IMG/VR virus record: IMGVR_UViG_3300030329_001051
Location: 1 to 25,600 of that record
Length of the DNA: 25,600 nt
Origin: a virus
Strand: one strand, 5' to 3'
The notes under the pieces were generated by a model, which was given only the letters and a program-made list of their open reading frames with translations, did not search any database and was not told the DNA's origin. The position numbers were made by a program, and so were the translations under genes. Every line of letters begins with the position of its first letter. Positions within the stretch are counted from its first letter, which is position 1. Below are positions 2,752 through 19,521 of this stretch, in pieces.

Positions 2752-2961
2752 ATGAGTCAAATACATGGTTACCTAAACAGTGTGCCTAGTGATTATGGGC
2801 ATCGCTGGACAAACAATTCAGATAACACAAGGGCTGAATGTCAGTACTGCGGGGATAGTTACGGCTCTCAACGCTGGTGCGATAATCGACTTGTGGTGTC
2901 TGATCAAGATAGAGACATGGATGATGCTATGTCTCAACACTATGGTCAGGAGGACCGATAA
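2752..2961 (+). CDS. Small Cys-motif protein
   Basis: A 69-residue protein starting two bases after the previous stop, with AAAGGAT as ribosome binding site. It carries Cys30-x2-Cys33 (ECQYCGDSYG) and Cys43 (RWCDN), with His17 as a possible fourth ligand, suggesting a small zinc-binding domain; the C-terminal third is acidic. An alternative frame at 2780 also stays open but starts inside this gene and lacks a good ribosome binding site. The stop overlaps the next start (TAATG at 2959-2963). Confidence 0.7.
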   Translation: MSQIHGYLNSVPSDYGHRWTNNSDNTRAECQYCGDSYGSQRWCDNRLVVSDQDRDMDDAMSQHYGQEDR

Positions 2962-3869
2962 TGACAGTTATAAATGATGGACCTATGTATGCAAGAGAAA
3001 TAATGGATGATGCTGGGGCTTTGTTCCCTGTGTATTATCCAGCGGCAAAACATTATTGCCTAGAAGGGAAAAACACTCGCATCCCTAAAATTGAGAGTGG
3101 CACTTATAAGGGTGAACCTTTATACAAGTTCGTTGTCCGTGAGGATACTGAACAGGTACTTGGGTTACATTCAGGGAAATACCCAGAGGTTGATGGATAC
3201 CAGATGCTTGCTGACATGGCAGACATGATGTTTCCTAGGTCATCTACTTCGTGCACCTTGTGGGGTGATGGTGAGAAAGTTGCTGTTACTCAGGAACTAG
3301 ACGAAGGAACTATCGATCTGGGTGGTGGGGATAAAATTTGCTCCCATCTGGTGTGGATTAGTTCCTTGGATGGTTCTTGGTCTACCAGTGTGTATGACAT
3401 GCAACGTAGATTCTTTTGCCAGAACCAACTGGTGGGTAAACCATTACTAAAGGTGAGGCACACTAAGAATCATGATGACATCTTTGAGATGAAAGCCACG
3501 ATCCTTAAGGAAGCGGCTGAACAGGCGCTTGCTTGGCAGGGTAAGGCTCTCGCTTTGAAGGAGCAACCTATGATTGATTTGGAGTTCTTTGCTCTTGTCA
3601 ATCTGTTGGTACCAATTGAGGATGATATGTCTAGCCGTAAGGAAAACTCTACTAGAAGAGCAAGAGGTGCGATGCTTGCTAGATGGGAGTTAGAAACCAA
3701 GGAGTGGGGCGAGGGTAATGGTTGGCTCGCTTGGAACGCTGTTCAAGGTGCAGAGCAACACACTATTAACGCTGGTACTAGACGTGACAAGGCTAAGTCA
3801 TTGCAGAAGGCTATTGAAGGTAAGACTCCTTTGGCTAACAAAGCGATGAGTCTTATATTGGCTAGATGA
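2961..3869 (+). CDS. DUF932 family phage protein
   Basis: A 302-residue protein that matches the pattern of the DUF932 (TIGR03299-type) phage/plasmid family. The signs are VVREDTEQVLGLHSGKYPEV (residues 58-77), a strand-rich middle, the FFCQNQL block (151-157) and VRHTKNHDD (165-173), followed by a helical C-terminal half. The family is widespread in phages and plasmids and its biochemical role is not established. The family's usual place among early, non-structural genes fits. The start is in a TAATG overlap with AGGAGG upstream. The stop overlaps the next start by four bases (ATGA at 3866-3869). Confidence 0.8.
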   Translation: MTVINDGPMYAREIMDDAGALFPVYYPAAKHYCLEGKNTRIPKIESGTYKGEPLYKFVVREDTEQVLGLHSGKYPEVDGYQMLADMADMMFPRSSTSCTLWGDGEKVAVTQELDEGTIDLGGGDKICSHLVWISSLDGSWSTSVYDMQRRFFCQNQLVGKPLLKVRHTKNHDDIFEMKATILKEAAEQALAWQGKALALKEQPMIDLEFFALVNLLVPIEDDMSSRKENSTRRARGAMLARWELETKEWGEGNGWLAWNAVQGAEQHTINAGTRRDKAKSLQKAIEGKTPLANKAMSLILAR

Positions 3870-4246
3870 TTACAAAAATATTACTAGTTACTGCTCTTAG
3901 TGGTGTCGGTGGATGTTCCACATTAGGCGAATACATTCAAGTGTATTTTGCTCCTGAAGATCATGATCTGATGGAACAGATTGCTTGGTGTGAGTCGTCC
4001 GCCGACCCTGATGATGAGTACTCAGTAGCAGTTAATAAAAAATCCGGGGCTACTGGTTGGTTCCAACACTTACCTAAGTGGTGGGATGAGCGTAGCAGGA
4101 AAGCAGGGTTTAAAGGTAGAAGTATCTATGATCCTGAAGCAAACGTGGGGGTAGCGAGTTACCTCTACTACAACATGAACAGCAATGAACGATGGGGTGG
4201 CGCTAGTCATTGGTATCCATCGAGACGTTGCTGGGGAGGTAAATAG
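3866..4246 (+). CDS. Small lipoprotein-like lysozyme-fold (transglycosylase SLT-like) protein
   Basis: A 126-residue protein. Residues 1-16 form a short hydrophobic signal ending in VGGC, so Cys17 could be a lipidated cysteine. Residues 35-122 resemble lysozyme-like or SLT transglycosylase domains: IAWCESSADP carries the likely catalytic Glu43, GATGWFQHLPKWW (61-73) fits the conserved 'GxxGxxQ' block, and IYDPEANVGVASYLYY (87-102) fits the next helix. Cys42 and Cys122 could form a disulphide. It would act on peptidoglycan outside the membrane. It lies in the early operon, far from the lysis cassette, which is odd for a lysis enzyme. It might instead act in superinfection exclusion or cell-wall remodelling, but this is inference. 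Confidence 0.65.
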   Translation: MITKILLVTALSGVGGCSTLGEYIQVYFAPEDHDLMEQIAWCESSADPDDEYSVAVNKKSGATGWFQHLPKWWDERSRKAGFKGRSIYDPEANVGVASYLYYNMNSNERWGGASHWYPSRRCWGGK

Positions 4247-4381
4247 ATGGGACAAATACCATCAGGTGTCAACGAGACACTTACAAGAGAAGAGTATCTA
4301 CGCTATCGTGCGGAAGACTCAAAAATTATCAGACAGAAAAAGGTAAAGAATGAGGATATTAGAAACAATGCCAGACACTAA
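4247..4381 (+). CDS. Small hypothetical protein (44 aa)
   Basis: ATG at 4247 follows the previous TAG directly and has a very good ribosome binding site (GGGAGG, 7-nt spacing). The frame encodes 44 residues, begins MGQIPSGVNETLTREEYLRY and is charged and helical, ending in a basic Lys/Arg-rich tail. No family is recognised. It overlaps the following gene by 32 nt, or by 14 nt if that gene starts at its second ATG. The strong ribosome binding site and exact placement make it likely to be real. Confidence 0.65.
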   Translation: MGQIPSGVNETLTREEYLRYRAEDSKIIRQKKVKNEDIRNNARH

Positions 4382-4801: not shown

Positions 4802-4805
4802 ATCG

Positions 4806-4844
4806 GCGGGAGTCGGGTTACCCCTCCTTCGACCCGGCTCCCGC
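4806..4844 (+). promoter_or_regulatory. Strong intergenic hairpin with anti-SD-like loop
   Basis: GCGGGAGTCGGGT pairs with ACCCGGCTCCCGC over 13 base pairs (one G-U wobble in RNA) around a 13-base loop, TACCCCTCCTTCG. It fills most of the 59-nt gap between two early genes. No T-run follows, so it is not a canonical intrinsic terminator. It could stabilise or process mRNA, attenuate transcription, or act through its loop, which contains CCTCCTT, the same bases as the anti-Shine-Dalgarno core of 16S rRNA. Confidence 0.6.
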
Positions 4845-4860
4845 TTCACGAAAGGTAATA

Positions 4861-5151
4861 ATGGAAGATAAGTTAGAGGATCTGGAAAACAGATTAACCC
4901 AGTTAGAAATGGTTGTTCTCAATGAGGACGGCACAAACATTGCACAAGCATTGATTGCTTTGTTTCAACTTGTGCATCAGACATTGCTGTTACTAGCAGA
5001 TTCTGAACATGATAAAGCACAGGCTCACGGCAAACTCCAATTTGAATTGGGTTATCTGATTGAGCAAGCGTTAGGTAAGGGAAGTTCAGAGGACTCGGAA
5101 GAGCCTGATAATGTCATCCCGCACCCGTCACTATGGACACCATCAGAGTGA
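4861..5151 (+). CDS. Hypothetical coiled-coil protein (96 aa)
   Basis: A 96-residue protein starting at ATG 4861 after GAAAGG. The N-terminus (MEDKLEDLENRLTQLEMVVL) has clear heptad-like Leu spacing for a short coiled coil. Residues 25-73 form amphipathic helices (AQALIALFQLVHQTLLLLAD), and the C-terminus is an acidic, Pro-containing tail. It is probably an oligomeric small helical protein. No membrane segment is convincing, although residues 29-46 are fairly hydrophobic. No family is recognised. It lies alone between two strong hairpins (4806-4844 and 5164-5206), unlike the overlapping genes around it. Confidence 0.7.
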   Translation: MEDKLEDLENRLTQLEMVVLNEDGTNIAQALIALFQLVHQTLLLLADSEHDKAQAHGKLQFELGYLIEQALGKGSSEDSEEPDNVIPHPSLWTPSE

Positions 5152-5163
5152 TCATCCACCCAC

Positions 5164-5206
5164 CATGCCATGCCATGTATTATAATCATATACATGGCAT
5201 GGCATG
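5164..5206. repeat. Perfect 17-bp inverted repeat with TATAAT in the loop
   Basis: CATGCCATGCCATGTAT (5164-5180) is the exact reverse complement of 5190-5206, around a 9-base loop TATAATCAT. Each arm is itself built of repeated CATGC/GGCATG units. It fills the gap between 5151 and the nuclease start at 5228. No T-run follows. The loop has a consensus -10 hexamer but no -35 at 17 nt. Candidate roles are a dimeric-protein operator, a replication or recombination site, or an mRNA processing stem. Confidence 0.6.
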
Positions 5207-5227
5207 ACAAGCCATGAAGGAGAGAAC

Positions 5228-6037
5228 ATGAGCACAGAAAAAATAATATTAAGACAGTCATGGCTGGGACAACTAGCCATGTGTCCTGAAAGAGCACGAC
5301 AGGACATGCTCGGTATATCCGAGTCAACAGATTCCACATCCACAGTCTTGGGATCTGCTGTGCATTACGGCGTAGAACAATGCCTCATAGACAAGATGCA
5401 AACAGGTGACCCGCTCACCAAAGGTGAAACAGTCGCAGCGTCTATGGAATACTGGACCAAGCATGTCAAAGACATTGTGCGTTGGAACCACAAAGAAGGC
5501 GAACCTGAAAAGATAATCATCGCTAACACAGAAGTATGGTGGGATGAAGTGATGCCCGATGTGCACCCAATCGCTGTGGAGAAACACTTCGAGTTACCAC
5601 TGGTTGTGGATCATCAACCGGAGATTTGGTTACAAGGAACCATCGATTGTGTCCAAGAGTTTCCCCGTCCGATACTCGATTGGAAAAATCCGGGACGTAA
5701 ACCATCAGACGACTGGGAGAAGAAACGATGGTCAGTTCAAGCCGCAGCATACACTTGGGCTGTAGCATCCATGTCGGACAACAACCTGTCTGAACCTTTA
5801 CAGTTCGAGTTCGTGTACCTAGTTAAAGGAAAGGTGCATAGAACTATTGTAGATTTTGGACCCGCTGAATGGGCATCGTTGGTTGCTCTTGCTCGTTCTG
5901 CGGGTTCACTTATTTCCGCTGACCTGCCCGTGTGGCCTCTCAATATGACTGGCTGGCATTGTGCACCTAAATGGTGTGGTGCTTGGAGCACCTGTCGTGG
6001 CAGGTTTGCGGGACCAGACCCATGGAACCAACTATAG
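5228..6037 (+). CDS. Cas4/RecB-like PD-(D/E)XK nuclease with Fe-S cluster cysteines
   Basis: A 269-residue protein. I chose ATG 5228 because AAGGAG lies 5 nt upstream; an in-frame ATG at 5204 sits within the hairpin arm. Motifs follow the RecB/Cas4/AddB family in order: Cys19 in LAMCPERARQ; GSAVHYGVE with His47; Glu118; the acidic ID of GTID (Asp140); DWK with Asp151 and Lys153; and QAAAY with Gln171 and Tyr175. Three more Cys near the end (Cys245-x4-Cys250-x5-Cys256) with Cys19 make the set that holds a [4Fe-4S] cluster in Cas4 and AddB. It likely processes DNA ends or flaps in replication or recombination. No cas1/cas2 genes or CRISPR array is near. Nuclease activity is inferred from motifs. 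Confidence 0.85.
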   Translation: MSTEKIILRQSWLGQLAMCPERARQDMLGISESTDSTSTVLGSAVHYGVEQCLIDKMQTGDPLTKGETVAASMEYWTKHVKDIVRWNHKEGEPEKIIIANTEVWWDEVMPDVHPIAVEKHFELPLVVDHQPEIWLQGTIDCVQEFPRPILDWKNPGRKPSDDWEKKRWSVQAAAYTWAVASMSDNNLSEPLQFEFVYLVKGKVHRTIVDFGPAEWASLVALARSAGSLISADLPVWPLNMTGWHCAPKWCGAWSTCRGRFAGPDPWNQL

Positions 6038-6054: not shown

Positions 6055-6621
6055 ATGGGAGAAACAACAGGGAACACATTTACGGTGTTCCGCAGACAAG
6101 TTATCCAAACAGGTAACTATGAACCAGCAGAAGCATCTTGCTCTGTCACTATCGCTGTCGACGCTGATGCGTCACAGGAGGAGGTAGCCGACTTGATATC
6201 CCAATGGGGTACAACGTTGGAGATCGCCAACTATGAAGCGTTGGGTGTCGGATATGAGATGCTTGAACAGGGCGTACGGAGGTTGGAAAAAAGCGTTTCC
6301 GAACCTGCAAAAAGTGCTCCCGTGGCCAAAAAATCCGGGGCTGCTGCCCCGACCACATCAGGTGGATCAACATTGGATTCGCTCTGGCGTGATCTAGTTA
6401 ATAATAAAACCGATTGGTGGGACCCGAACTGGGAGAAGAAGTTAGACCCAACGGCTAACTTTAATCCTAACGGTCCAGACTACAAGCGCAGGTCAGATGG
6501 CAAGGGCTTGTGGCTATCCAAGAAAGATGGAACTGCTTTAGTTCCGTCGTGGTTCGTTTGTCCGTTCACAAACAAAAACCATGATGAACTAGTGGACATC
6601 ATTGGACAACTCAGAGGTTAA
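6055..6621 (+). CDS. Hypothetical two-domain protein between nuclease and helicase
   Basis: A 188-residue protein with GGTAGG upstream of its ATG. Residues 1-80 look like a beta-rich then helical domain (TVFRRQVIQTGNYEPAEASC, then SQEEVADLISQWG). Residues 82-105 are a low-complexity Ala/Ser/Pro/Lys linker. Residues 106-188 form a Trp-, Asn- and Lys-rich domain (TDWWDPNWEKKLD; KGLWLSKKDGTALVPSWFVC). Aromatic and basic content plus its place between a nuclease and a helicase-like ATPase suggest a nucleic-acid-binding accessory, such as an SSB- or loader-like role, but no family is recognised. It overlaps the next frame by 20 nt. Confidence 0.75.
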   Translation: MGETTGNTFTVFRRQVIQTGNYEPAEASCSVTIAVDADASQEEVADLISQWGTTLEIANYEALGVGYEMLEQGVRRLEKSVSEPAKSAPVAKKSGAAAPTTSGGSTLDSLWRDLVNNKTDWWDPNWEKKLDPTANFNPNGPDYKRRSDGKGLWLSKKDGTALVPSWFVCPFTNKNHDELVDIIGQLRG

Positions 6622-7582
6622 AGAAGAACCTCTGTCGGTGGAAGATATTGCCCGTCGCCTCGCTACTGCTCATGTTAGCGAGGAGGCGGGTTCTTCCGAT
6701 AGGCCCAAACGTTGGGCGCTGACATCCCTAGTAGTAGATAACCTAGTCGGGTTCATACAGAACCCTTCTGAACGGTGGTATCTAGGTATACCAGAGGTAG
6801 ACATCGCTACTAGAGGAGTCGGACGAGGCGAGTTGATGCTCGTAGTAGGCAGATCACACACAGGTAAATCTCAAGTGTTGTTAAACAGCATTGTGTCTAA
6901 CCTAGTGAACAACCCTGCTGCACACGTAGTTATCTTCTCAATGGATGAACCAAGAGAACTGGTCGTGATGAAACTGTTCTGTTTGTTACGTGGAAGATCC
7001 TCAGATGTCGTAGAGAACCTCATCAAAGAACAAGATGAAGACATGTTGGAAGATCTTGAACGTGCAGCGAAAGAAGAACTGTCACGAGTAGCGATCATAG
7101 ATGAATCAATCCCTCTTAATGCTATGGCAGAAGTGATGGATGAGATACGTGAATGGTGGGGAGTGAACCCGTCATTCTGCATGATCGATTACCTCGAACT
7201 GTTACCCGGAGGTGACTCCGATGCAACAGGAGTAACAACCAAAGCACAAGCAGTGAAACGCTGGGCTAAAACACAGCGTGTTCCAGTCGGTCTTGTGCAC
7301 CAAGCAGGAAGAGGTTCAGGAGACAAAGGCAAAGCAGCCGGAATCTACGCAGGTAGATACGGTGGTGAACAAGAAGCCATCTTTGTACTGGAAGTGTACC
7401 GTCAGAAAGACAGGTACGATTTGTCCGAATGGGAAAAGAAATACCATGCGAACAGTGTCAACCTGAACCTGTGTAAAAACAAAAGAACCGCTCGTTTAAA
7501 CGATCAGGTTTATTACATGGACCCTGAGTGTGGGCATGTGCACCCATACTGGGAGGAGTTGATACCAGATGTTAATGTCTGA
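6602..7582 (+). CDS. DnaB-like/RecA-fold replicative helicase ATPase
   Basis: A 326-residue protein. Walker A is GRSHTGKS (83-90), an acidic DEPRE (115-119) follows the next strand, Walker B is SFCMIDYLEL with Asp196, and a sensor-like VHQ (232-234) follows. A basic NKRTARLND block (293-301) may hold the arginine finger. This order fits the RecA-fold C-terminal domain of DnaB-type helicases. The protein is shorter than DnaB (about 450 aa): residues 1-60 replace the usual helical N-terminal domain. It should hydrolyse ATP and unwind DNA at the fork with the primase two genes on. The start is a TTG with a weak ribosome binding site inside the previous gene, so coupling is likely; a downstream start is possible. 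Confidence 0.82.
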   Translation: MDNSEVKEEPLSVEDIARRLATAHVSEEAGSSDRPKRWALTSLVVDNLVGFIQNPSERWYLGIPEVDIATRGVGRGELMLVVGRSHTGKSQVLLNSIVSNLVNNPAAHVVIFSMDEPRELVVMKLFCLLRGRSSDVVENLIKEQDEDMLEDLERAAKEELSRVAIIDESIPLNAMAEVMDEIREWWGVNPSFCMIDYLELLPGGDSDATGVTTKAQAVKRWAKTQRVPVGLVHQAGRGSGDKGKAAGIYAGRYGGEQEAIFVLEVYRQKDRYDLSEWEKKYHANSVNLNLCKNKRTARLNDQVYYMDPECGHVHPYWEELIPDVNV

Positions 7583-7745
7583 ATTTAAAATAACTAGAAA
7601 ACCCATAGCCTTAGGAGCAGGCATATGGATACAACGATGGATAGTGGAACACGAAGGACGAGTCCTCACGTTGACTGACAGTAAAGAAGAAGCAGAAACA
7701 TTCGTCTCTACTAAAGTTGACAACTGGAGGTCACGAGATGAGTAA
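7575..7745 (+). CDS. Small hypothetical protein (56 aa) between helicase and primase
   Basis: ATG at 7575 opens a 56-residue frame that overlaps the helicase end by 8 nt and the primase start by 8 nt, filling what would otherwise be a gap of about 155 nt. It begins MSEFKITRKPIALGAGIWIQ and has alternating strands (WIQRWIVEHEGRVLTL) followed by an acidic helix (DSKEEAETFVS). That is a plausible small folded domain. The flanking frames are closed and the GGAGG site of the primase lies within it. No family is recognised. Confidence 0.6.
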   Translation: MSEFKITRKPIALGAGIWIQRWIVEHEGRVLTLTDSKEEAETFVSTKVDNWRSRDE

Positions 7746-8733
7746 CGGTAACGTGTCAGACGAAACAGTTATGAAATTCGCTAACCTTTTCAGAGGAGGG
7801 AAAGTCGCTTTAGATGATGGGAAGTTCCGCCCTTGGGTAACAGACACAGGCAAACACGTTGATGCAGATGGAAAAGACTTTGTTTCCACAATCGCAGATC
7901 ATTTAAAAACAGGACCATCCATCGGCGTGTACCCTCTTTTTGTTCAAGACGATGGACTTAAAGTTTACTGGGGGTGCGTTGACTGGGACACAGGCAGGAA
8001 AGAATCTTACGTGCATGCTTGCAATGTGTACGAAACACTGCGTCAACTGGATGTCATGGCTTGGATAGAAAGATCAAAGTCCAAAGGGTTTCACCTGTGG
8101 GTGTTCTTTAAAGAAGCGATGCTGGCTTCCGATGTGCGTTACGGTTTGATAGGAGCATGCAATATAGTTGATGCGCCCACGAAAGAAGTCAACCCGAAAC
8201 AAACGGAACTGACTAACAAAGGGTTAGGTAACGGAGTTAGATTACCTTATGGTTTTTTAAGAGAAACAGGCGGTCCTAATGAAATGGACAGACCAGAATG
8301 GTCTTTTTCTAAGGTGCCTGTTAAATCCTTTGTAGATGAAGCATCCGAAAACATGATATCACCTGAAGCGTGGAAGCCTGTCAGAGCCTTATACAAGCCT
8401 CCTGAGAGGTCTGTGATACCCATACTAGGATTAGGTACCAGAACAGGGACTTTGACGGGTCTGGCGGGGAGTATAAGGGAGAACGGTCCCCGTGAATCGG
8501 TAGAAAAAGGATACGTTGACAGATCAGGAGCCTTATATTCCCTAGCCTGCGCAATGGTAAGGCAAGGATACACAGATAGACGCATCATGGATGAACTAAT
8601 AAGTGCAGACAAAGAATGGGGAGCGAAGTACGCTTCCCGTGATGATGGAGCACAACGATTACACGACACACTAAATAATGCAAGAAAGCATGCTTATGAA
8701 AACGAACACGGTTACAATCCAGAGACGACCTAA
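7738..8733 (+). CDS. Archaeo-eukaryotic-type (AEP) primase
   Basis: A 331-residue protein. ATG 7738 was chosen because GGAGG lies 7 nt upstream; a TTG at 7717 is also in frame. The AEP motifs appear in order: WGCVDWDTG with Asp82 and Asp84 (metal ligands), SKSKGFHLWVFF with Gly117 and His119, and GNGVRLPYG with Arg168. Residues about 245-331 form a helical C-terminal region (GALYSLACAMVRQGYTDRRI) similar to primase C-terminal helper domains. It should make primers for phage DNA synthesis with the helicase-like ATPase just upstream. Some AEPs also polymerise DNA, and no separate polymerase is visible here. The exact AEP subfamily (TOTE-like or other) is not settled. Confidence 0.75.
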   Translation: MSNGNVSDETVMKFANLFRGGKVALDDGKFRPWVTDTGKHVDADGKDFVSTIADHLKTGPSIGVYPLFVQDDGLKVYWGCVDWDTGRKESYVHACNVYETLRQLDVMAWIERSKSKGFHLWVFFKEAMLASDVRYGLIGACNIVDAPTKEVNPKQTELTNKGLGNGVRLPYGFLRETGGPNEMDRPEWSFSKVPVKSFVDEASENMISPEAWKPVRALYKPPERSVIPILGLGTRTGTLTGLAGSIRENGPRESVEKGYVDRSGALYSLACAMVRQGYTDRRIMDELISADKEWGAKYASRDDGAQRLHDTLNNARKHAYENEHGYNPETT

Positions 8734-10244: not shown

Positions 10245-10415
10245 CTATTTCGCTACTTTATCTTTAACAAATGTTTTCAACACAGACACAACCGCTGCTA
10301 AACCAGCAACACCTGCGCCTTTGGCTGAAGATAAATCAGCGACAACAAACACACCGAGGAATGATTGAGCGAAAGTCCAAGCAGCCCTCTCTAACATATC
10401 TGTTAAATTTTTCAA
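10245..10415 (-). CDS. Holin (r1t-like, small)
   Basis: I favour a TTG start at 10415, giving 56 residues, because AAAGGA lies 6 nt upstream; an in-frame TTG at 10436 adds 7 residues but has no ribosome binding site. The protein has the form of small r1t-type holins: ERAAWTFAQSFLGVFVVAD as a first hydrophobic helix, a Gly/Ala-rich AKGAGVAGLAAVVSVLKTF as a second, and a basic tail (VKDKVAK). It should form the membrane lesion that lets the endolysin reach peptidoglycan. It lies four frames downstream of the endolysin in the same operon. Confidence 0.75.
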   Translation of the reverse strand: MKNLTDMLERAAWTFAQSFLGVFVVADLSSAKGAGVAGLAAVVSVLKTFVKDKVAK

Positions 10416-10442
10416 ATTATTTCCTTTGTTAGACAAATGTAA

Positions 10443-10840: not shown

Positions 10841-11614
10841 TTATTGTATAAACAGGCAGCCGAACGTTTCACCGTTCACCACACCTGTAACCTTCAAAAA
10901 ACCTTGTGTCTCTTGAAATTTTCTAACAGCAGCCACAGTTTTCTTACCGAAAATCCCATCCACAGGACCCGGATCAAAACCACGCTCTACTAATTTTCCC
11001 TGCACTAAACGCACAGGCAAACCTCTGCTACGAGAAGGACGAGACAAAGGAGTCTTCTTAACCTGCTCGTGTAAATCTTTAAAGAACTGGATGATAGCAG
11101 CCCAATCAACAGCCTCAGGTGCCTCAACAACACCCATGCCTCCCTCAACCCAGTCGCCTAAAATATCACCCGGACATGTCGTGTACCCTTCACGGCTTTT
11201 CTTACGATGAGTGGAAACCCACAAACCTCTACCGAAATGTGATTCCGCTGCTTTAACAACTTCCTCTAATGAACGTAACGCTTCATCACGAGGTTTATTA
11301 AACCCCCAACCTGTGAAGCACACACTGATGGAACGACTGTTCCAACCCTTAGTGCCAGCGCCACGATTGTCCCAACCGCGCCCCTCAAAAATAGTTCCGC
11401 TCTCATCAACAAGCCAGTTGTACCCGACACCATCCCATCCTTTACCCATGTGATGACGTTCAAAAGCCTTAACAGCATCAGAGCCTTTAGGCCCGTTCTC
11501 TACACCAGAATGGTGAATAACAACACCCTGAACTCTCGCCTTATTTAACTTGTCAAACTTTCCCTTAGGTGGCGGTTGTGCACCCCACCCGGATCTAGAA
11601 ATGTACTTCATCAT
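10841..11614 (-). CDS. Endolysin: N-acetylmuramoyl-L-alanine amidase with peptidoglycan-binding domain
   Basis: A 257-residue protein from ATG 11614, with AGGAGG 7 nt upstream. Residues about 5-155 are an Amidase_2 domain: SRSGWGAQ at the start, VVIHHSG with His34 and His35, VGYNWLVDESGTIFEGRG (63-80), and the zinc ligands His136 (STHRK) and Cys147 (TTCPGD). Residues about 155-195 are a linker with a helix and a basic SRPSRSRG segment. Residues about 197-255 form a peptidoglycan_binding_1 domain (LVERGFDPGPVDGIFGKKT). It cuts the bond between muramic acid and L-Ala. No signal peptide is present, so release depends on the holin. The architecture suits a Gram-positive host. Confidence 0.92.
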   Translation of the reverse strand: MMKYISRSGWGAQPPPKGKFDKLNKARVQGVVIHHSGVENGPKGSDAVKAFERHHMGKGWDGVGYNWLVDESGTIFEGRGWDNRGAGTKGWNSRSISVCFTGWGFNKPRDEALRSLEEVVKAAESHFGRGLWVSTHRKKSREGYTTCPGDILGDWVEGGMGVVEAPEAVDWAAIIQFFKDLHEQVKKTPLSRPSRSRGLPVRLVQGKLVERGFDPGPVDGIFGKKTVAAVRKFQETQGFLKVTGVVNGETFGCLFIQ

Positions 11615-11635: not shown

Positions 11636-14600
11636 TTACCTAACACGATACTCTATATCTTGCTTGTCTTTAATTTCTTGAGCACGATTCATCTCATTAT
11701 GAACTTGAGCACTGTATTTAGCCTCAGGAGTAAGCACCCTTAAACTCTGACCAGCAAGAAAAGAAGCCCAAGTTTGCACCCTTTTCTTCTGAAATTTTTT
11801 CTCATCACTCAACAAACGTCTAGCCATATTAAGTTGTGGTAAAGATTTACCAACAAGGTCCAAGTCACGGTCAGTCATCTTCCACTCACCCTTAGAGTTT
11901 TTCTTAGCCAACCCCACCATACCTAAAGAAGTCATCAAGAAAGGAATCTTCTCCCACGCAGAAGGAACATTCTGGTACCTGCCAGTAAAAGGAATGTTAC
12001 CAAAGATCTGTTTACCAGCCCAATACTCAATAGGTGCTTTCATTAAAGGAGACGCACCCGAAGCCAAGTTAGAAAGCATACCTTTCCAACCCTCAGCAGA
12101 AGGATCTAACCTGAACAAATCTTGAAAAGGCCAATCAGGAACAGAATAAACTTTATCTCCACCTATTTTAAACGGAAGTTGCACACCGAACGGTTGCAAA
12201 AACCAATCAGGAACCAACCCTTCGTTTTCTTTTTCCTCCCCGTACTCCAAGTTTCTTTTAAGATCAAACAACCTGTTGTACTTACCCGGATTACGAGCAA
12301 GGAACTCTACCTGCAAAGGAAGATTGTTACGTGACCAAGTGTAAAATGGGAACACCCTCTTACCCCACTTCTGCTCCCAGTCAGACAAATCAGAGTAATC
12401 GAAATGCAATTTGTAAATAGTTCCAATAGCATCATCCAACTGGCGACCATTACGCATAGCCCACAAACCTGTACCTAAACGCATAGCCTCTTCAGCAATA
12501 GTGTTCGCTTCACGCACTACCGAATAGCCAACAAAATCTGCGCTACGAGGATCCAACGTATAAGTCTTACCCGTTCCAGCCATACCCTCAGCGCCACGTT
12601 CAACCCTTGAAGTGATAGAAAAACGTGACTGTTTAATAATTCCACGCTCAATAGTTGACGCTGCCTGACCGCCCAAACCAGCACCAGCCTCAACCAACGT
12701 ATTGAAATTCTCCAACTCATTACGAGAAAATGTGCGCCCATAAATGCGAGTAGTCTTACCTTTAGTTTCATTCAACAACATGCGAGCACCCGCGACAGTA
12801 TCACCACGACCAAGATTGCTGGCCTTAAAGTTCAACAAGAACGCATCCAAAATCTCAGTAGGAGGTATACCATAGAACCAGTTGTTAAACGCACCACCCA
12901 TGATGTTCCTCATAACGAAACCCGGAGTGGCTATAAGATTCGCTTTAACCCAGTTATGCAACCTGTCATAATCACGTATAAAACCTTCCACCCTGTCCTG
13001 AGTAAACCCAACAGTAGCGTTCATCGCTTCAACAACATCATCAGCCCATCCCTGACCACCATCACTGATAAGCCAAGGCCCCCATCTCATAACATTGTCA
13101 TCCAATAATTGAATAAGTTCTTGAGCATTAAGATCACCAAGTCTTAACTCACCTCCACCAAACTTACCTAACTGATACATCCCATTGATACCTTCAACAC
13201 CTTCAGACAATTCATCAAAAGTTTTACCAATCATCAACCTCAAGTTGTCAGCCTGCGTACTGTTCATAGCCAGATTTGTTTCTATAAGAGCACGTTCAGC
13301 CTTGATAGTTTGAATCAACAATTGTTTCTCTATAACCTCGTTCTGTCGATTTAAAATTTCTTTTTGAACACCTTGAATAGTTTGTTCAACACCACCAAAC
13401 TCTTCCCCGATAACCCCTCGTCCTTCTTTAACCCCCCTGCCGGTCTTGGTGACATAAGCAGGACGGTTGAAATAAATTTTTTGTTCAGGAGTAGCAACCC
13501 CTACAATCGTGGCAATGTTGTTACGATGAATAGCCGCCTCATCAAGCAGCCCATTAATAATCTCAACTTCCGTCTCATAACGAGCCTGAGCGTCTCTCCA
13601 ATTTTTTATCTTCCGACCCGCTTCTATCACACCCTTACGAGTCTCCCTGTTTAAACCAGTAGCCCAAGAAGCAAACACACCCGGACCAGCGAATTCAATA
13701 GGACCATTCTTTTGCAAATTCTGAGCACGACGCAAAGCAGCCTGCAAAGCCTTCTTCTGGTCGTCACCTAATTGTAATAAACCACGTCCAACTTTAGGAC
13801 CACCCAACTGCACGAGTTTAAACAACTCGGACAACTCTTCAATCTCATCAACCAATTCTGCCCAACGGGTCATAACACTCGCTTTCCAACTGTTATGACG
13901 AGTCAAAGGAATAGGCATGCTAGGAGAAGAACCCGTTTTCAGAATCCGCAACATCTGTTTAGCAGCAGCCACACTGCTGTCTTTCAACAAACCTTCTTCC
14001 ATAGCATTAATCAAAGCAGGCAATAACTCATCCACTAAAGGATCAATAGCCCCACCAAGCATCCCCTCCATGTCATCAAAGAATTGTAAAAATACTTCAG
14101 CATCAACTTGATCTAAAGGAATCTCATAAATAGATTCAGTCAACACACCCTTCTCACGCAACGGCTGATTCTTATCTTTACCACGAAACAAGTTACGAGC
14201 AGGATTAAGAGGACGGCTAGGAGTACCCGGAGAAGTAGAAGCAATAGCCTCCTGTGCTCTTAAAGCAGCCAACTCTTTAGGAGTAGCAACACGAGGGCCA
14301 CCTAAAGGAGAAACAAACTTACCATCAGCATCCTTCAAAGGAGCACGACTAGGAGCAACAGGAACACCCGCATTATCAACCCCCTGCCTGAACAAAGGAG
14401 CGCCTTTACCGATAGGGAACTGCTGATTAACCATAGAAGGACTCAAGAATTGAGGCACATCCAACCTAACCTCACCCGTGTACCTCACAGGCACCCCTTT
14501 ACCAGAAAAAGTACCTCTGCGTAAAACAACAGGGATCTCTTTAAAACCTAACTGTCTAGCCGCCGCCAACTTCGCCGCATAATCCTCACCCGGAGCGATA

Positions 14601-17548
14601 GCCATTCTGGATTTCTCCAACAGAGAAGCAGCACCAGTTTTAGCCTGAGGTGTTACAGTCCCAGTGAAAAGAATTTCTAAAGGCTCATCCATTCCACCCT
14701 GCTCAGTGAATTGAATAACATATCTGTTAACCAGACCCGGATCAGCAGGACCGATAAACAAATCATCCAGCACAGTGTCCGCTGAATCAACAAATTCCGC
14801 TTCAGGAAAATCTGCCATAGCAGGATGCAAACGTGCGCTCTGAACTACACGCACATTCATCCCCTCAGGACCAGCCGCAGTCAATCCTTCCTTCAGAATA
14901 GTTTTAACTTCAATCAACTGTTGACGAGCAGCCTGAGCGTAAGCAATCACTTCCAAATACTCATCCAACTCGCTGACCAACGGAAAGATTTCCTCCACAG
15001 CATTTATCACACGCTCACCAGCAGGCCCCGGCTCATCAACAAACCTTCCCAACCTGCTATCAAAACCACCAAGAACTTCACGCAACTCATCCGTTGTTCT
15101 AGTAATGTCATCAGCCAACTGCTCCAACACAGCCTGCCGTTCAGTTATCTCAGCAACTATCTCACGCAAACTAGCCCGCGCTTCACCTTTAGCCTTCTGA
15201 ATGTTAGCCAACATCCGCTCCATAAACTGGATCGATTCTTTACCAGCAATCACAGACTGATTAACCCTCTTAGTTAACTCGTAAACACGAGAAGATTCTT
15301 TCCCCTCTTCCTTAAGTTTACGCTCTAAAGCCTTCTCAAGTTTCTCCCCCGCTTTCATCAACTTGGCGTACTCCGCTAACTGTTCATCCAATGTGCGACC
15401 ATCAAACAACACGCCCATCTTCTCCATGTACCGAGCGAAATGGGTAACCCTAAACTCTTGAGCCATGCTCGCCAAATAACGAGCCTCCCTTTGAGTAAGG
15501 TTCTTAACATACAAACTTGTCTGATCATCAATCAAACCAACCGCTCGTAAAAAATCATCCATCTGATCTTCAATAGACAAACCCTCAGGATGAGCGACAA
15601 TGTTCATGTTCGCACGAGTAGGAGACACCCCTCTAGTCAGATCCTCAACAGGTCTAAGAATCTCAAACTCAACATAAGCCAACTCATCTACTTCTTTAAT
15701 CGCATCAGCCTCATCCATTCCCGCTCTTACACGACGTTGAACAGCCAAACGTTTCTGCAAAGGACCAATAGCATTCCACAAATCATCTATCGTCTGCCCC
15801 TCAGCAGCATCAATAGCCAAAACAGTACCCGGATTTAACTTACGTTTCTTTAAAAACCCACTATCAGCAGGAGCAGGACGACGACCCATCCGACCAGCAA
15901 CCACATCCGCTGCCTCATCCTCATCAAACATGCGTAACGGATTAACAAAATCTTTACCCTCTTTAACAAGCCTGTTGTTCTGAACCAACCTTAAACGCTT
16001 ACTAGTAAACAGAAAATCTCTCAAATCAGGATCAATGATTCTAGGCGAATAACCACCCGCCGCTTCAATAGAAGCCAAGAACTGCCTCGTGTACCTTCCA
16101 TCAGGATCAATCTCCTCAAAAGATTTCCTCAAAGGTTGTTGAACACGACTCTCCCAAATTTCCTGAGCGCCACGTATAACATCCTCAGAAACACCGAGAC
16201 GAGCAGCAACCGCAGGAGTAGGACTTTGAGCACGAGTTAAAGCACCCAACAACTCCTCGTCCGTGATGCCATACACCTGCTCCATCTCATTACGATAAGC
16301 GCGCTCACCAGCAGTACGTTCATTAACCCAACGACCTATACGAGCATTAGAAACCTGCGACCCACCCATAGCAAACCGAGCAGTGATAATAGCCTGAGGG
16401 TCCTCGTTCTCTATTCCTCTACGCAACCATTGCTGTGCATTAAATTTAGCGTCACTCGTCAACATCTTTCTTAAACCAGTACCCATGTTCGTTCCGCCTA
16501 TTTTAGAAATAGCAGAACCCGGCAACCCAGCCAAAGAAGCATAAACTTTTCCAGCCTTACCCATACTCACACGAGAAGCAAAAGGAACCAACTCGACAGG
16601 CATCCTAGCGGCACGTTGAATACCCGCTTGAACAAACGGAGCCAACACTGGGTCAGCCTTAAATGCTTCTTTAAACAAATCATCAGCCATACCTTGATCT
16701 GCTTTTGAACCAGCCAACTTGCGGAAAATAGTTTCTAACTTAGAATCATCCAACCCAACTTTACGTGCCTCTTCCTTCAAAAACTTAGGTGCTTGTTTCA
16801 CACGAGCAGCACTAGTAACACCAAGCCTGTTACCTAACTTGCGTAACACAGGTCCAGTACCCGGAACTCTCACACGGTTACCGAAACCTAAACCAAGGTC
16901 ATCAATAATTTTAGCGCCTTGCTCACCGCCTTCTCTTTGTAAAACTCTTAACGCGGCAGCAGGACTTTTCTGTTTATTAGCAGCAGTAATAGCACGACCC
17001 ATAAGAGCACGACCCGAATCGTCCAAAGTCATAGCGTATCTACCCGCTGTTTCAGTGAACTCTTTAGTAGCGCCACGCCAAAACGCTGAACCAACACCCC
17101 AATTAACCAAAGGATCAGTAATCAGATCACCAGTAAAACCAAGGATGCGTTTACCCCAACCGCCTAAACCAAACCAAGAGTTGTCAATATCCTCAGCGGA
17201 CAACCCCTGATTAGCCAACAGGTCAAGAAAACCTATACGCTCATCAAACTGACGCTTCCAATCGCTAGGAGAAAACCCTCTACCACGCAACAAATCAACT
17301 GTTTCATTAACTGTTGAACGCACAAACGCTCCCGGTGCAGTCAACGTGCTCGCTAACCCTCCTAGGATTCCTTCAAATGTGGAAGGACCTTCACGAGATT
17401 TACGCACACGATCTAACGCATCTTGAAACTCTTCAGGAGATAACTTTCTTTTAACAGGTGTATTAGGAAGTTGTAAATTGTTTAACCCTCCAAAGCCCGA
17501 CTTTCTTTGTTGAAGGGCTTGGGCTATATCGTTGCGCCCCCAACCCAT
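11636..17548 (-). CDS. Giant virion protein (1970 aa), LPD38-like C-terminal region
   Basis: ATG 17548 was chosen because it overlaps the previous stop as TAATG; a start at 17584 would add 12 residues inside the previous gene. Residues about 30-350 are Gly/Arg-rich helices, and about 715-835 are a long coiled coil (Glu/Lys/Arg/Leu rich). The C-terminal quarter has RNMIGGAFNNWFYGIPP, and then, from residue 1716, FDYSDLSDWE and KRVFPFYTWSRNNLPLQ. This block recurs in very large phage proteins called LPD38-like. Size, coiled coils and position before the lysis genes suggest an internal or ejected virion protein. No peptidase or transglycosylase motif stands out. The domain call is from memory of the pattern. 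Confidence 0.8.
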   Translation of the reverse strand: MGWGRNDIAQALQQRKSGFGGLNNLQLPNTPVKRKLSPEEFQDALDRVRKSREGPSTFEGILGGLASTLTAPGAFVRSTVNETVDLLRGRGFSPSDWKRQFDERIGFLDLLANQGLSAEDIDNSWFGLGGWGKRILGFTGDLITDPLVNWGVGSAFWRGATKEFTETAGRYAMTLDDSGRALMGRAITAANKQKSPAAALRVLQREGGEQGAKIIDDLGLGFGNRVRVPGTGPVLRKLGNRLGVTSAARVKQAPKFLKEEARKVGLDDSKLETIFRKLAGSKADQGMADDLFKEAFKADPVLAPFVQAGIQRAARMPVELVPFASRVSMGKAGKVYASLAGLPGSAISKIGGTNMGTGLRKMLTSDAKFNAQQWLRRGIENEDPQAIITARFAMGGSQVSNARIGRWVNERTAGERAYRNEMEQVYGITDEELLGALTRAQSPTPAVAARLGVSEDVIRGAQEIWESRVQQPLRKSFEEIDPDGRYTRQFLASIEAAGGYSPRIIDPDLRDFLFTSKRLRLVQNNRLVKEGKDFVNPLRMFDEDEAADVVAGRMGRRPAPADSGFLKKRKLNPGTVLAIDAAEGQTIDDLWNAIGPLQKRLAVQRRVRAGMDEADAIKEVDELAYVEFEILRPVEDLTRGVSPTRANMNIVAHPEGLSIEDQMDDFLRAVGLIDDQTSLYVKNLTQREARYLASMAQEFRVTHFARYMEKMGVLFDGRTLDEQLAEYAKLMKAGEKLEKALERKLKEEGKESSRVYELTKRVNQSVIAGKESIQFMERMLANIQKAKGEARASLREIVAEITERQAVLEQLADDITRTTDELREVLGGFDSRLGRFVDEPGPAGERVINAVEEIFPLVSELDEYLEVIAYAQAARQQLIEVKTILKEGLTAAGPEGMNVRVVQSARLHPAMADFPEAEFVDSADTVLDDLFIGPADPGLVNRYVIQFTEQGGMDEPLEILFTGTVTPQAKTGAASLLEKSRMAIAPGEDYAAKLAAARQLGFKEIPVVLRRGTFSGKGVPVRYTGEVRLDVPQFLSPSMVNQQFPIGKGAPLFRQGVDNAGVPVAPSRAPLKDADGKFVSPLGGPRVATPKELAALRAQEAIASTSPGTPSRPLNPARNLFRGKDKNQPLREKGVLTESIYEIPLDQVDAEVFLQFFDDMEGMLGGAIDPLVDELLPALINAMEEGLLKDSSVAAAKQMLRILKTGSSPSMPIPLTRHNSWKASVMTRWAELVDEIEELSELFKLVQLGGPKVGRGLLQLGDDQKKALQAALRRAQNLQKNGPIEFAGPGVFASWATGLNRETRKGVIEAGRKIKNWRDAQARYETEVEIINGLLDEAAIHRNNIATIVGVATPEQKIYFNRPAYVTKTGRGVKEGRGVIGEEFGGVEQTIQGVQKEILNRQNEVIEKQLLIQTIKAERALIETNLAMNSTQADNLRLMIGKTFDELSEGVEGINGMYQLGKFGGGELRLGDLNAQELIQLLDDNVMRWGPWLISDGGQGWADDVVEAMNATVGFTQDRVEGFIRDYDRLHNWVKANLIATPGFVMRNIMGGAFNNWFYGIPPTEILDAFLLNFKASNLGRGDTVAGARMLLNETKGKTTRIYGRTFSRNELENFNTLVEAGAGLGGQAASTIERGIIKQSRFSITSRVERGAEGMAGTGKTYTLDPRSADFVGYSVVREANTIAEEAMRLGTGLWAMRNGRQLDDAIGTIYKLHFDYSDLSDWEQKWGKRVFPFYTWSRNNLPLQVEFLARNPGKYNRLFDLKRNLEYGEEKENEGLVPDWFLQPFGVQLPFKIGGDKVYSVPDWPFQDLFRLDPSAEGWKGMLSNLASGASPLMKAPIEYWAGKQIFGNIPFTGRYQNVPSAWEKIPFLMTSLGMVGLAKKNSKGEWKMTDRDLDLVGKSLPQLNMARRLLSDEKKFQKKRVQTWASFLAGQSLRVLTPEAKYSAQVHNEMNRAQEIKDKQDIEYRVR

Positions 17549-19521
17549 TACGAGATCAAACCTAGTTCTGACACTACACGCCACGCTTCATTAATAACTT
17601 TATCACCAGACATCATAGCCTTTTCAGAGGCGGTACCCCAGATGTCAGTTATTTCTGGCAGCGTTAATCCTTCTTGCATCATTCGGCTAGTAAATATAAA
17701 CATATCTTCAGACATTCCAGCCATGCCAGCACCCAATTCTTGTCCAAGTAATTGATCACGTATGTTTATAGATTCTGGAATGAGCAAATCCATCATCCCA
17801 GCCTCAGCCAACTCCTTCATCACAACAGGAGCAATCTCATCAGGCAAAACAACATTAGGATCTTGATCTATTTGATTCATGTACCAGTTAATAATGTCAT
17901 AATCAGGTTCTGCACCCTGATCCAAAGCCAACTGTGCGCTCCTATAAGCCTCATCCAAAGCACGATCAAGAGAACGCTCCGCTGCACCAGCCTTTTCTTT
18001 GCGTCTTTCTTCACCAATAGTAGCCATATCTAAACCAGCCATCGTGCCAGTAAAGTATTGAGCAGGATCTAAACCAAACTCAGGACCCAACGTTTCAGCC
18101 TGACGAGCATCCCTAGCCAACTGTCGTCGCATCATACCAGCCGACCTGTTAATATCACCACGAGCAGCACCAAACCTTTGAGCACCTTCAGTTCGTAAAC
18201 TAGCCTCAGCCAACAAACCGATATCACGCATAGCATTCAAATAATTACTTTCAGTCTCAGCCACACCATCATACAAAGCGTTAACAAACGCAATATCAGA
18301 AGCAATCAAATCAGGATTAACACCCGAATCAATCATCTGCTGCTTCATCGCCAACAACTCTTCACCACGAGCAATGTCACGATCAGAAACACCCTGAGTG
18401 TACTCATCAATAACCATTTGTTGCCGAGGCACAAACCCCGGAACGAACTGACCTGTGCTGCCAGTAAACCCAGTAATGTATTTATCTAACAACTGGTTGT
18501 AAGTCCTCTCGGCAGCATTAACATCCATCATCCCAGTAGTAACCATGTCGTCCACCATCGCCACTTCAGACGCTAACGCATCTTCCAAAGAAGGACCCAT
18601 GTAAGGAGGTGGAGCAAACTGGTTGCTAGGAGCCAACGCTGCTAACTCTATTGCAGCCGCAGGGTTACCCACAGGAGGAGCAGCGCCTGTTGGACTTCCG
18701 AAAAGTCCCATCCAAGAATCCATCACATCTGTTTCAGATAAAGGAGTCATACCAGCAAAAGGATCAACAGGGTCTGTAACCACATTTGGACTCATTCCCC
18801 CAGTTTGAACATTAACAGGCAAAGCAGTTTCAGCATAATCCTGCCATTCAGGACTTAGTTGAGAAAGATAATCCGCAAAAGCATCAGCATTTTCTTGAGG
18901 CATTGTGCCTGTGCCATACATCCTGTCAACAGTTGCTGTTACAGGTTGACCACCAGTGAATGTTGCTAAATCATTTTCTATATTTCTTAATAAATTTTCT
19001 CTACTCGTTAAAGATTCTTGCAAAAATTGTGTGTACGCTTGATTCTCATATCCGGGTCTAATAATTGACTCATCCACAGGTACAGTAATGTCACCAATTT
19101 TGAACCCCATAAAAGGTGACCCGCTTCCTGTTTGAAGAGTTTGAGGGCTGAAAGCACTTAACAGATCACCAGCGCGAGCATACCTGTCACCAGACCACAA
19201 AGGATTTTGAGCCGCAGGTAAATTAGGAAATATTTGAGGCAACCTTAGATTTGCCCCACGAGGATCTATAGCCCGTGAACCTCCACCCATCTGTTGAGCA
19301 GCAGCCTGTAAAGCCATAAAATCATTAAGATTTTTTATTTGATTTTGATAACTTGCTTGATCGGCAAGCATAGCCTGATATGCCTGTGATTGGTAATCAG
19401 GTGGAACATAAGGATCAGTAAATACTCTAGACCAGATATCTCCATAATTGATAGCATCAGGCCCACGACCTAAAACACCTTGTAATGGATTAATAACTTT
19501 GTCTTCTATCCAATCAATCAT
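17548..19521 (-). CDS. Large putative virion protein (657 aa)
   Basis: A 657-residue protein starting in an ATGA overlap with the gene before. The N-terminal third is rich in Gln, Pro and Gly (SQAYQAMLADQASYQNQIKN). The middle has many polar loops. Residues about 430-500 are a long Ala/Arg/Gly helix region (EASLRTEGAQRFGAARGDIN, then MMRRQLARDARQAE) typical of internal or ejected phage proteins. No enzymatic motif is seen. It shares an LSPxWQD phrase and a similar Ala/Gly/Arg C-terminal style with the 655-aa neighbour, so the two may be distant relatives or partners. The role is inferred from order and composition. Confidence 0.75.
   Translation of the reverse strand: MIDWIEDKVINPLQGVLGRGPDAINYGDIWSRVFTDPYVPPDYQSQAYQAMLADQASYQNQIKNLNDFMALQAAAQQMGGGSRAIDPRGANLRLPQIFPNLPAAQNPLWSGDRYARAGDLLSAFSPQTLQTGSGSPFMGFKIGDITVPVDESIIRPGYENQAYTQFLQESLTSRENLLRNIENDLATFTGGQPVTATVDRMYGTGTMPQENADAFADYLSQLSPEWQDYAETALPVNVQTGGMSPNVVTDPVDPFAGMTPLSETDVMDSWMGLFGSPTGAAPPVGNPAAAIELAALAPSNQFAPPPYMGPSLEDALASEVAMVDDMVTTGMMDVNAAERTYNQLLDKYITGFTGSTGQFVPGFVPRQQMVIDEYTQGVSDRDIARGEELLAMKQQMIDSGVNPDLIASDIAFVNALYDGVAETESNYLNAMRDIGLLAEASLRTEGAQRFGAARGDINRSAGMMRRQLARDARQAETLGPEFGLDPAQYFTGTMAGLDMATIGEERRKEKAGAAERSLDRALDEAYRSAQLALDQGAEPDYDIINWYMNQIDQDPNVVLPDEIAPVVMKELAEAGMMDLLIPESINIRDQLLGQELGAGMAGMSEDMFIFTSRMMQEGLTLPEITDIWGTASEKAMMSGDKVINEAWRVVSELGLIS

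Follow-up and report, generated by a model that had tools for sequence, protein, structure and literature searches.

Kayvirus Tgl (PMC7150955) is an exported SLT-like enzyme that is transcribed early by the host polymerase, with which its promoter is active, and that is akin to host autolysins. S. aureus is lysed by it only upon loss of the membrane potential; until nisin collapses that potential no lysis occurs (PMC7150955). Lys of the Fletchervirus F352 is a Sec-exported SLT (PF01464) endolysin encoded outside any lysis cassette; its source (PMC7692668) describes it as its phage's endolysin, with a Gram-negative host and an ordinary signal peptide. The membrane-bound Mlt-type lytic transglycosylases MltE (outer-membrane-anchored according to its structure title), MltC and MltF resemble the enzyme analysed here in fold, but they are Gram-negative, larger and only remotely similar in sequence. 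MltC is a lipoprotein. Small lysozyme-like domains also occur in actinobacteria as the Rpf domains of mycobacteria and others, in which a Cys is next to the catalytic Glu. Proteins known to exclude superinfecting phages include small phage lipoproteins, such as T5 Llp and TP-J34 Ltp.

Here we analyse a virus record of 25,600 bases, the whole of which we call the window, and within it a gene for a predicted lipid-anchored SLT-fold enzyme of 126 amino acids (3866..4246, + strand).

The SLT gene and its predicted lipoprotein signal

The sequence and the ORF list place the ATG of the SLT gene at 3866 and the end of its stop codon at 4246; the assignment draws on the sequence, Pfam, the family alignment, a structure model and structure comparison. 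Residues 1–16 (3866..3913, + strand) form a predicted lipoprotein signal, in which MITK is followed by about 12 uncharged residues that end in V-G-G before Cys17, a stretch shorter than an ordinary membrane span. The N-terminus has the features of a bacterial lipoprotein (charged n-region, hydrophobic stretch, lipobox, and a Cys within the first ~30 residues), and in a pattern scan it fits both a PROSITE-like lipobox and a stricter Gram-positive pattern. Cys17 (3914..3916, + strand) is predicted to be lipidated by Lgt and, following cleavage by LspA, to be residue 1 of the mature protein. A signal-anchor-release endolysin was considered and rejected, as the hydrophobic stretch Ile5–Gly16 has only about 12 residues and ends in Cys.

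The predicted catalytic residue is Glu43 (codon 3992–3994), which together with Cys42 occupies 3989..3994 on the + strand. It is followed by GATGWFQ (residues 61–67; 4046..4066, + strand), located from the family alignment and from the Pfam SLT alignment, which spans residues 34–108; we take this motif to be the counterpart of GxxGLMQ in SLT enzymes. The family alignment also marks an invariant C-terminal Cys, Cys122 (4229..4231, + strand), to which Cys42 is perhaps disulfide-bonded. The ORF, its length, a short signal ending in VGGC, Glu43 and GATGWFQ had all been correctly located in the sequence by the initial annotation.

Fold and enzyme class

Pfam SLT (PF01464) matches the window protein at E 7.2e-4 with 19.5 bits, below its gathering cut-off of 21.3, and a PHROG transglycosylase family matches it at E 1.1e-3. 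Half of the aligned family members (19/38) match Pfam SLT at E ≤0.1, the best at 6e-5. The window protein found no match in NCBIfam, only weak matches in a sequence search of the PDB (best E 0.45, phiKZ gp144), and none in a profile search of the PDB.

The AlphaFold2 model has a mean pLDDT of 81, with block means above 90 over approximately residues 21–100 and weak confidence at both ends. Foldseek ranked SLT70, Slt and MltE first, with a best E of 0.011 and none at 0.001. In the VIA comparison, SLT70 gave Z 9.2 (rmsd 4.5, 106 aligned) and phiKZ gp144 Z 8.7 (rmsd 2.7, 103 aligned); the remaining rows are, judging by their titles, lysozymes and transglycosylases. No Rpf chain is among the VIA rows listed, which does not count against a resemblance. 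Among viral structure models the best match reached E 1.9e-4, and phage transglycosylases were among the top matches. Fold prediction and structure comparison (SLT70, MltE, phiKZ gp144) thus agree with the SLT/lysozyme-like fold initially suggested. As modelled, the protein is a lysozyme-superfamily domain of the SLT type, weak by sequence and clear by fold and motif; it is SLT-like by these two measures and not a Pfam SLT member by score.

The family carries an ES motif followed by GA-G-FQ: CES is found in 49/49 relatives counted, and E43, G64, F66 and Q67 are invariant in 38/38 aligned sequences. The equivalence of these positions to the active site of SLT enzymes is drawn from the motif and the Pfam alignment, not from coordinates. 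SLT-type glycan cleavage by the window protein is a prediction from motif and model.

Family conservation and selection

Relatives are encoded in 44 viral loci by sequence search and in 55 distinct loci when the alignment was used as query. Cys42, Glu43 and Cys122 are invariant throughout the 38 sequences of alignment A1, which excludes L023 (frameshifted), L043–L045 (cut at a contig end) and the duplicates L010, L021 and L026. Left out of the count of 49 relatives are L088, the partial L092, which nevertheless shows CES, and L047 and L048, whose protein is identical to that of L046. Conservation of the glutamate, as the initial annotation had expected, is thus complete. Its companion expectation, a conserved lipobox Cys, holds in most of the family: an N-terminal Cys follows a hydrophobic stretch in 47/49 relatives, and is missing in L054 and L055. 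A PROSITE-like lipobox fits 35 of the 49 and the stricter Gram-positive pattern 20; poor lipoboxes are seen in L011 and L012, with Arg at -1, and in L057, with Thr before the Cys. L091 was read from stop to stop; its first listed Cys precedes the likely start, and a TASC motif follows a later Met.

The family has two forms. In the short form (~126 aa) the domain follows straight after the Cys, beginning about 3 residues after Cys17; the long form (~183 aa) has a tether of ~60 residues, and its model confidence is low up to about residue 36.

Compared with five relatives, the window gene has dN/dS values of 0.037–0.082, at dS values of 0.88–2.09 that are partly saturated; saturation left four other comparisons without a value. 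Purifying selection on the SLT gene is strong. Since relatives occur in viral loci and dN/dS is low, the gene is not a chance reading frame; dN/dS rules out a spurious ORF. With an active site that is invariant and a gene kept by purifying selection, selection seems to act on enzyme activity. In L023 (3022–3400) the SLT frame is broken by one or more frameshifts, and this is either a decaying copy or a sequence error.

Genomic setting

A DUF932 gene (2961..3869, + strand; Pfam, ORFs) lies directly upstream, its stop overlapping the SLT start codon (ATGA), and a 44-aa ORF (4247..4381, + strand; sequence) starts right after the SLT stop. Downstream on the same strand are nuclease, DnaB, primase and RusA genes, among them the PD-(D/E)XK nuclease gene of the replication module (5204..6037, + strand; Pfam) and the DnaB-like helicase gene (6602..7582, + strand; Pfam, PHROG). 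The separate lysis cassette is on the other strand. It includes a holin gene (10245..10436, − strand; PHROG holin E 3.1e-11) and the main endolysin gene (10841..11614, − strand; Pfam, PHROG), whose product has Amidase_2 and PG_binding_1, that is, amidase and wall-binding domains only by Pfam. The distance from the SLT gene to the holin gene is ~6.0 kb, which bears out the initial placement about 6 kb from an oppositely oriented lysis cassette; the neighbouring genes are those of replication.

The usual order in related loci is GP88-DUF932-SLT-small ORFs-nuclease-DnaB-primase-RusA-sigma-like, after which the lysis genes come from the other side. Among the 57 loci examined (window, L002–L057), a DnaB gene was seen in 48, always on the strand of the SLT gene (48/48), and DUF932 lies upstream on that strand in 32. 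Where the amidase gene was seen, it is on the opposite strand to the SLT gene in 21 loci, and in 6 the two share a strand. In a second lineage (L022, L042, L046–L048) the SLT gene is placed after DnaB. Divergent SLT genes of L088, L091 and L092, whose contigs have a WhiB gene, are upstream of DUF932, not downstream. The position of the gene suggests that it is expressed early. An early cell-wall enzyme had been called unusual in the initial annotation; it is less so given Tgl, an early-transcribed exported SLT enzyme (PMC7150955).

Several other features of the window were observed. The 44-aa ORF (4247–4381, + strand) holds LTREEYLRYR, and by eye a similar FTREELLQFRKE stretch is found in ORFs of relatives, even in those that have no SLT gene. 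For the primase (7717–8733, + strand), Pfam gives the archaeo-eukaryotic primase domain of TOTE conflict systems at E 1.2e-15. A 1982-aa ORF (11636–17584, − strand) is nearly without family matches (over 100 residues it resembles a PHROG tail-fibre family, E 1.4e-4), and beside it lie two ORFs of 655–657 aa without an assigned family.

A GC-rich hairpin of 15–16 bp with the loop ACCCCTCCTT is located at 4804–4846 (+ strand), just before the ORF at 4861–5151 (RNA fold z -3.6). Hairpins of relatives lie in the same region and have different stems, with 8/12 consensus pairs changed on both sides across 18 sequences. Among 23 distinct cases, most have a loop complementary to an AGGAG or GAGAGG ribosome site downstream; the summed complementarity was reached by 41/2000 permutations of loops against sites and by 0/1000 shuffles of the downstream sequence. 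Only 4 loop bases of the window's own hairpin match its ribosome site, and Rfam has no match in the window, hairpin included. The hairpin looks like a translational switch in which the loop would pair with the ribosome site as a pseudoknot.

Presence and absence among related phages

Through DnaB, 77 relatives were collected, some of which are the same contigs as the loci from the sequence search; 28 have the whole DUF932–nuclease interval and 49 are incomplete. In the complete intervals the SLT gene is between the two genes in 5, upstream of DUF932 in 3 and seen in none of the other 20, within loci that span ~5 kb on each side, so that a gene farther off would be missed. It was seen in 4/49 incomplete intervals. 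A search of 13 longer records gave a match in 11 and none in two (38 and 21.5 kb). As it was not seen in 20 complete intervals or in two longer records, the SLT gene is accessory, and it has moved or been gained more than once.

Amidases are 255–285 aa long in 21 loci without the SLT gene and 238–296 aa in 28 loci with it; as they are not longer without it, lysis does not need the SLT gene. No convincing other lipoprotein or wall enzyme was found in the same slot of 18 relatives (17/20 of those without SLT, and L109), where two pattern flags looked like chance.

The phage record collection yielded no phage close to this window: a single-sequence search of its 50,697 records gave no match, nor did queries with two distant relatives or the window's first 12 kb. 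A single-sequence search of genome contigs gave 60 pattern matches, none of which was confirmed.

Host and origin

WhiB-like genes are a mark of actinobacterial phages (PMC7771536). WhiB-like ORFs were found in 13 loci (L036, L052–L057, L088, L090–L093 and L102), and two ORFs of L057 pass Pfam WhiB; their presence in contigs related to the window suggests that the hosts are actinobacteria. The source of L057, which has an amidase ORF as well, is an Acidimicrobiales MAG.

Within the class to which this MAG belongs, a match was found in 70 of 247 genomes. Four of these matches (L133–L136, on contigs of 15–152 kb) are lipoprotein-like with Thr-rich linkers. L158 is chromosomal, as indicated by its neighbours, a BipA/TypA GTPase, an ABC transporter and a nucleoside hydrolase. 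In a tree of 123 columns and 73 rows, 48 phage rows group with the chromosomal lipoproteins L133–L136 (support 100/98). The 21 other host proteins, many of which have by eye a membrane-anchor-like N-terminus, stand apart. The tree has 15 open forks and long branches for L132, L161, L057 and L051, and the finer place of the phage rows in it is unsure. Descent of the phage gene from Acidimicrobiia host lipoproteins is the simplest reading and a probable one.

A second, divergent SLT-like protein is encoded in L161 (7150–7746; 51419–51730 of the 81 kb record G002). It has a hydrophobic N-terminus and a weak PG_binding_3 match, and it lies in a module with an SSB gene, with a VanY/PG_binding ORF on the other strand. 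The record may consist of two phages joined.

Possible roles of the enzyme

Our best reading, about as likely as not, is that the protein is an exported, lipid-anchored, glycan-cleaving helper lysin, Tgl-like but membrane-tethered and made with the replication proteins. It builds on the computed fold, conserved active site, signal shape, gene position and kinship. The enzyme would be exported by Sec and anchored via Cys17 at the outer face of the cytoplasmic membrane, next to new wall. Co-expression with the replication proteins would put it in place before the late genes are on, and with an energised membrane and wall repair its cuts would be tolerated. Once the holin collapses the membrane potential, the enzyme, working from the side of the membrane, would attack the glycan strands and the amidase the peptide stems, and the lipid anchor would keep the enzyme on the infected cell. 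The SLT enzyme would add a second kind of bond to the one cut by the main endolysin, whose domains are an amidase and a wall-binding one only.

Several findings count against a helper lysin. The gene is outside the lysis cassette and inside the replication operon, a place that suits action before lysis; it is accessory, and amidases are no longer without it; several lipoboxes are poor, and L054 and L055 have none. With the domain of the short form starting about 3 residues past Cys17, its reach into the wall would be limited.

Alternatively, phages of uncultured marine Acidimicrobiia may have taken a host wall-trimming lipoprotein and stripped it to anchor and catalytic domain, the enzyme, made alongside the replication proteins, then reworking the wall of the living infected cell, by exclusion or wall growth, and not serving lysis. 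We regard this as possible, if on the doubtful side. In one version, which we find somewhat unlikely, the anchored enzyme would trim or otherwise alter the wall next to the membrane early in infection, leaving a second phage unable to bind, open the wall or inject. An accessory gene in the replication module with a predicted membrane anchor would suit such exclusion, as would the small-lipoprotein examples T5 Llp and TP-J34 Ltp; these two are not known to be enzymes, whereas here the catalytic Glu is invariant and purifying selection strong. The superinfection block of the initial annotation is so far unsupported, and nothing favours it over a helper lysin or wall trimming.

In another version, rather unlikely in our judgement, the enzyme would replace a host wall-trimming lipoprotein after host shut-off, and the wall of the infected cell would stay growing and intact. 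Its closest relatives in cells are chromosomal lipoproteins that carry this domain, such as L158 beside a BipA/TypA GTPase and an ABC transporter; the expected timing fits and anchoring would limit damage, but related phages manage without the gene.

It is very improbable that the protein is a growth or waking factor of the Rpf kind, one that would act on slow or dormant cells by stimulating them via wall turnover. The actinobacterial setting and the Cys just before the catalytic Glu would agree with it, and the Rpf-type Pfam family (PF06737-type) weakly matches 1/38 members (E 0.071) and one host homologue (E 0.0055, below cut-off). Lipid anchoring, however, is at odds with a diffusible factor, and Pfam SLT is the better match (19/38 at E ≤0.1); the poor Rpf-type match is also what sets the family apart from mycobacterial and other Rpf domains. 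A virion enzyme that penetrates the wall at entry but is encoded in the early module is most unlikely and was rejected: phage tail and core proteins often contain SLT domains (as among the viral model matches; core-protein chain 7eyb in the VIA comparison), but position and signal speak against a tape-measure or virion lysin, the gene having a predicted lipoprotein signal and a replication-module position on the strand of DnaB in 48/48 loci.

A lipobox-bearing enzyme in a replication operon, found in several lineages and with host-lipoprotein kin, makes a cleaner case in which to ask how phages act on the wall before lysis. With E43 and C17, single-residue tests could tell catalysis from anchoring, and lysis from exclusion. 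The gene is also a handle on phages of uncultured marine actinobacteria.

Comparison with known systems

Returning to the helper lysin reading, the window protein shares with Tgl an SLT/lysozyme-like domain, Sec export (predicted here), the place of a second enzyme beside an amidase-bearing endolysin and, probably, transcription by the host polymerase and a kinship with host wall enzymes. Its signal-like N-terminus and modelled lysozyme-like fold make it a candidate for the exported endolysins of the Tgl/Lys44 type. The Tgl core, represented by PhageK_067, which was taken as Tgl from its size and place, aligns with alignment A1 (hhalign E 1.1e-6, 50 columns, 42% identity). Tgl differs in its AXA signal, which is of the signal peptidase I type, in its long middle region and in the place of its gene a few genes from lysK, whereas the window protein has a lipobox, almost no linker and a replication-module position, its gene being neither in nor near the lytic module. 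Unlike F352 Lys, it comes on top of an amidase, and its signal is of the lipoprotein kind. The Acidimicrobiia lipoproteins L133–L136 share a lipobox-like N-terminus, a linker and the same domain, and form one clade with the phage proteins, but they are chromosomal with Thr-rich linkers, a linker being absent from the short phage proteins. The open-licence PMC papers searched gave no account of a phage SLT enzyme that is a lipoprotein encoded in an early operon. Exported SLT phage enzymes are already known from Tgl and Fletchervirus Lys (PMC7692668). New are a lipoprotein signal followed by hardly any linker, a place in the replication module that is kept across lineages, and the kinship with Acidimicrobiia lipoproteins.
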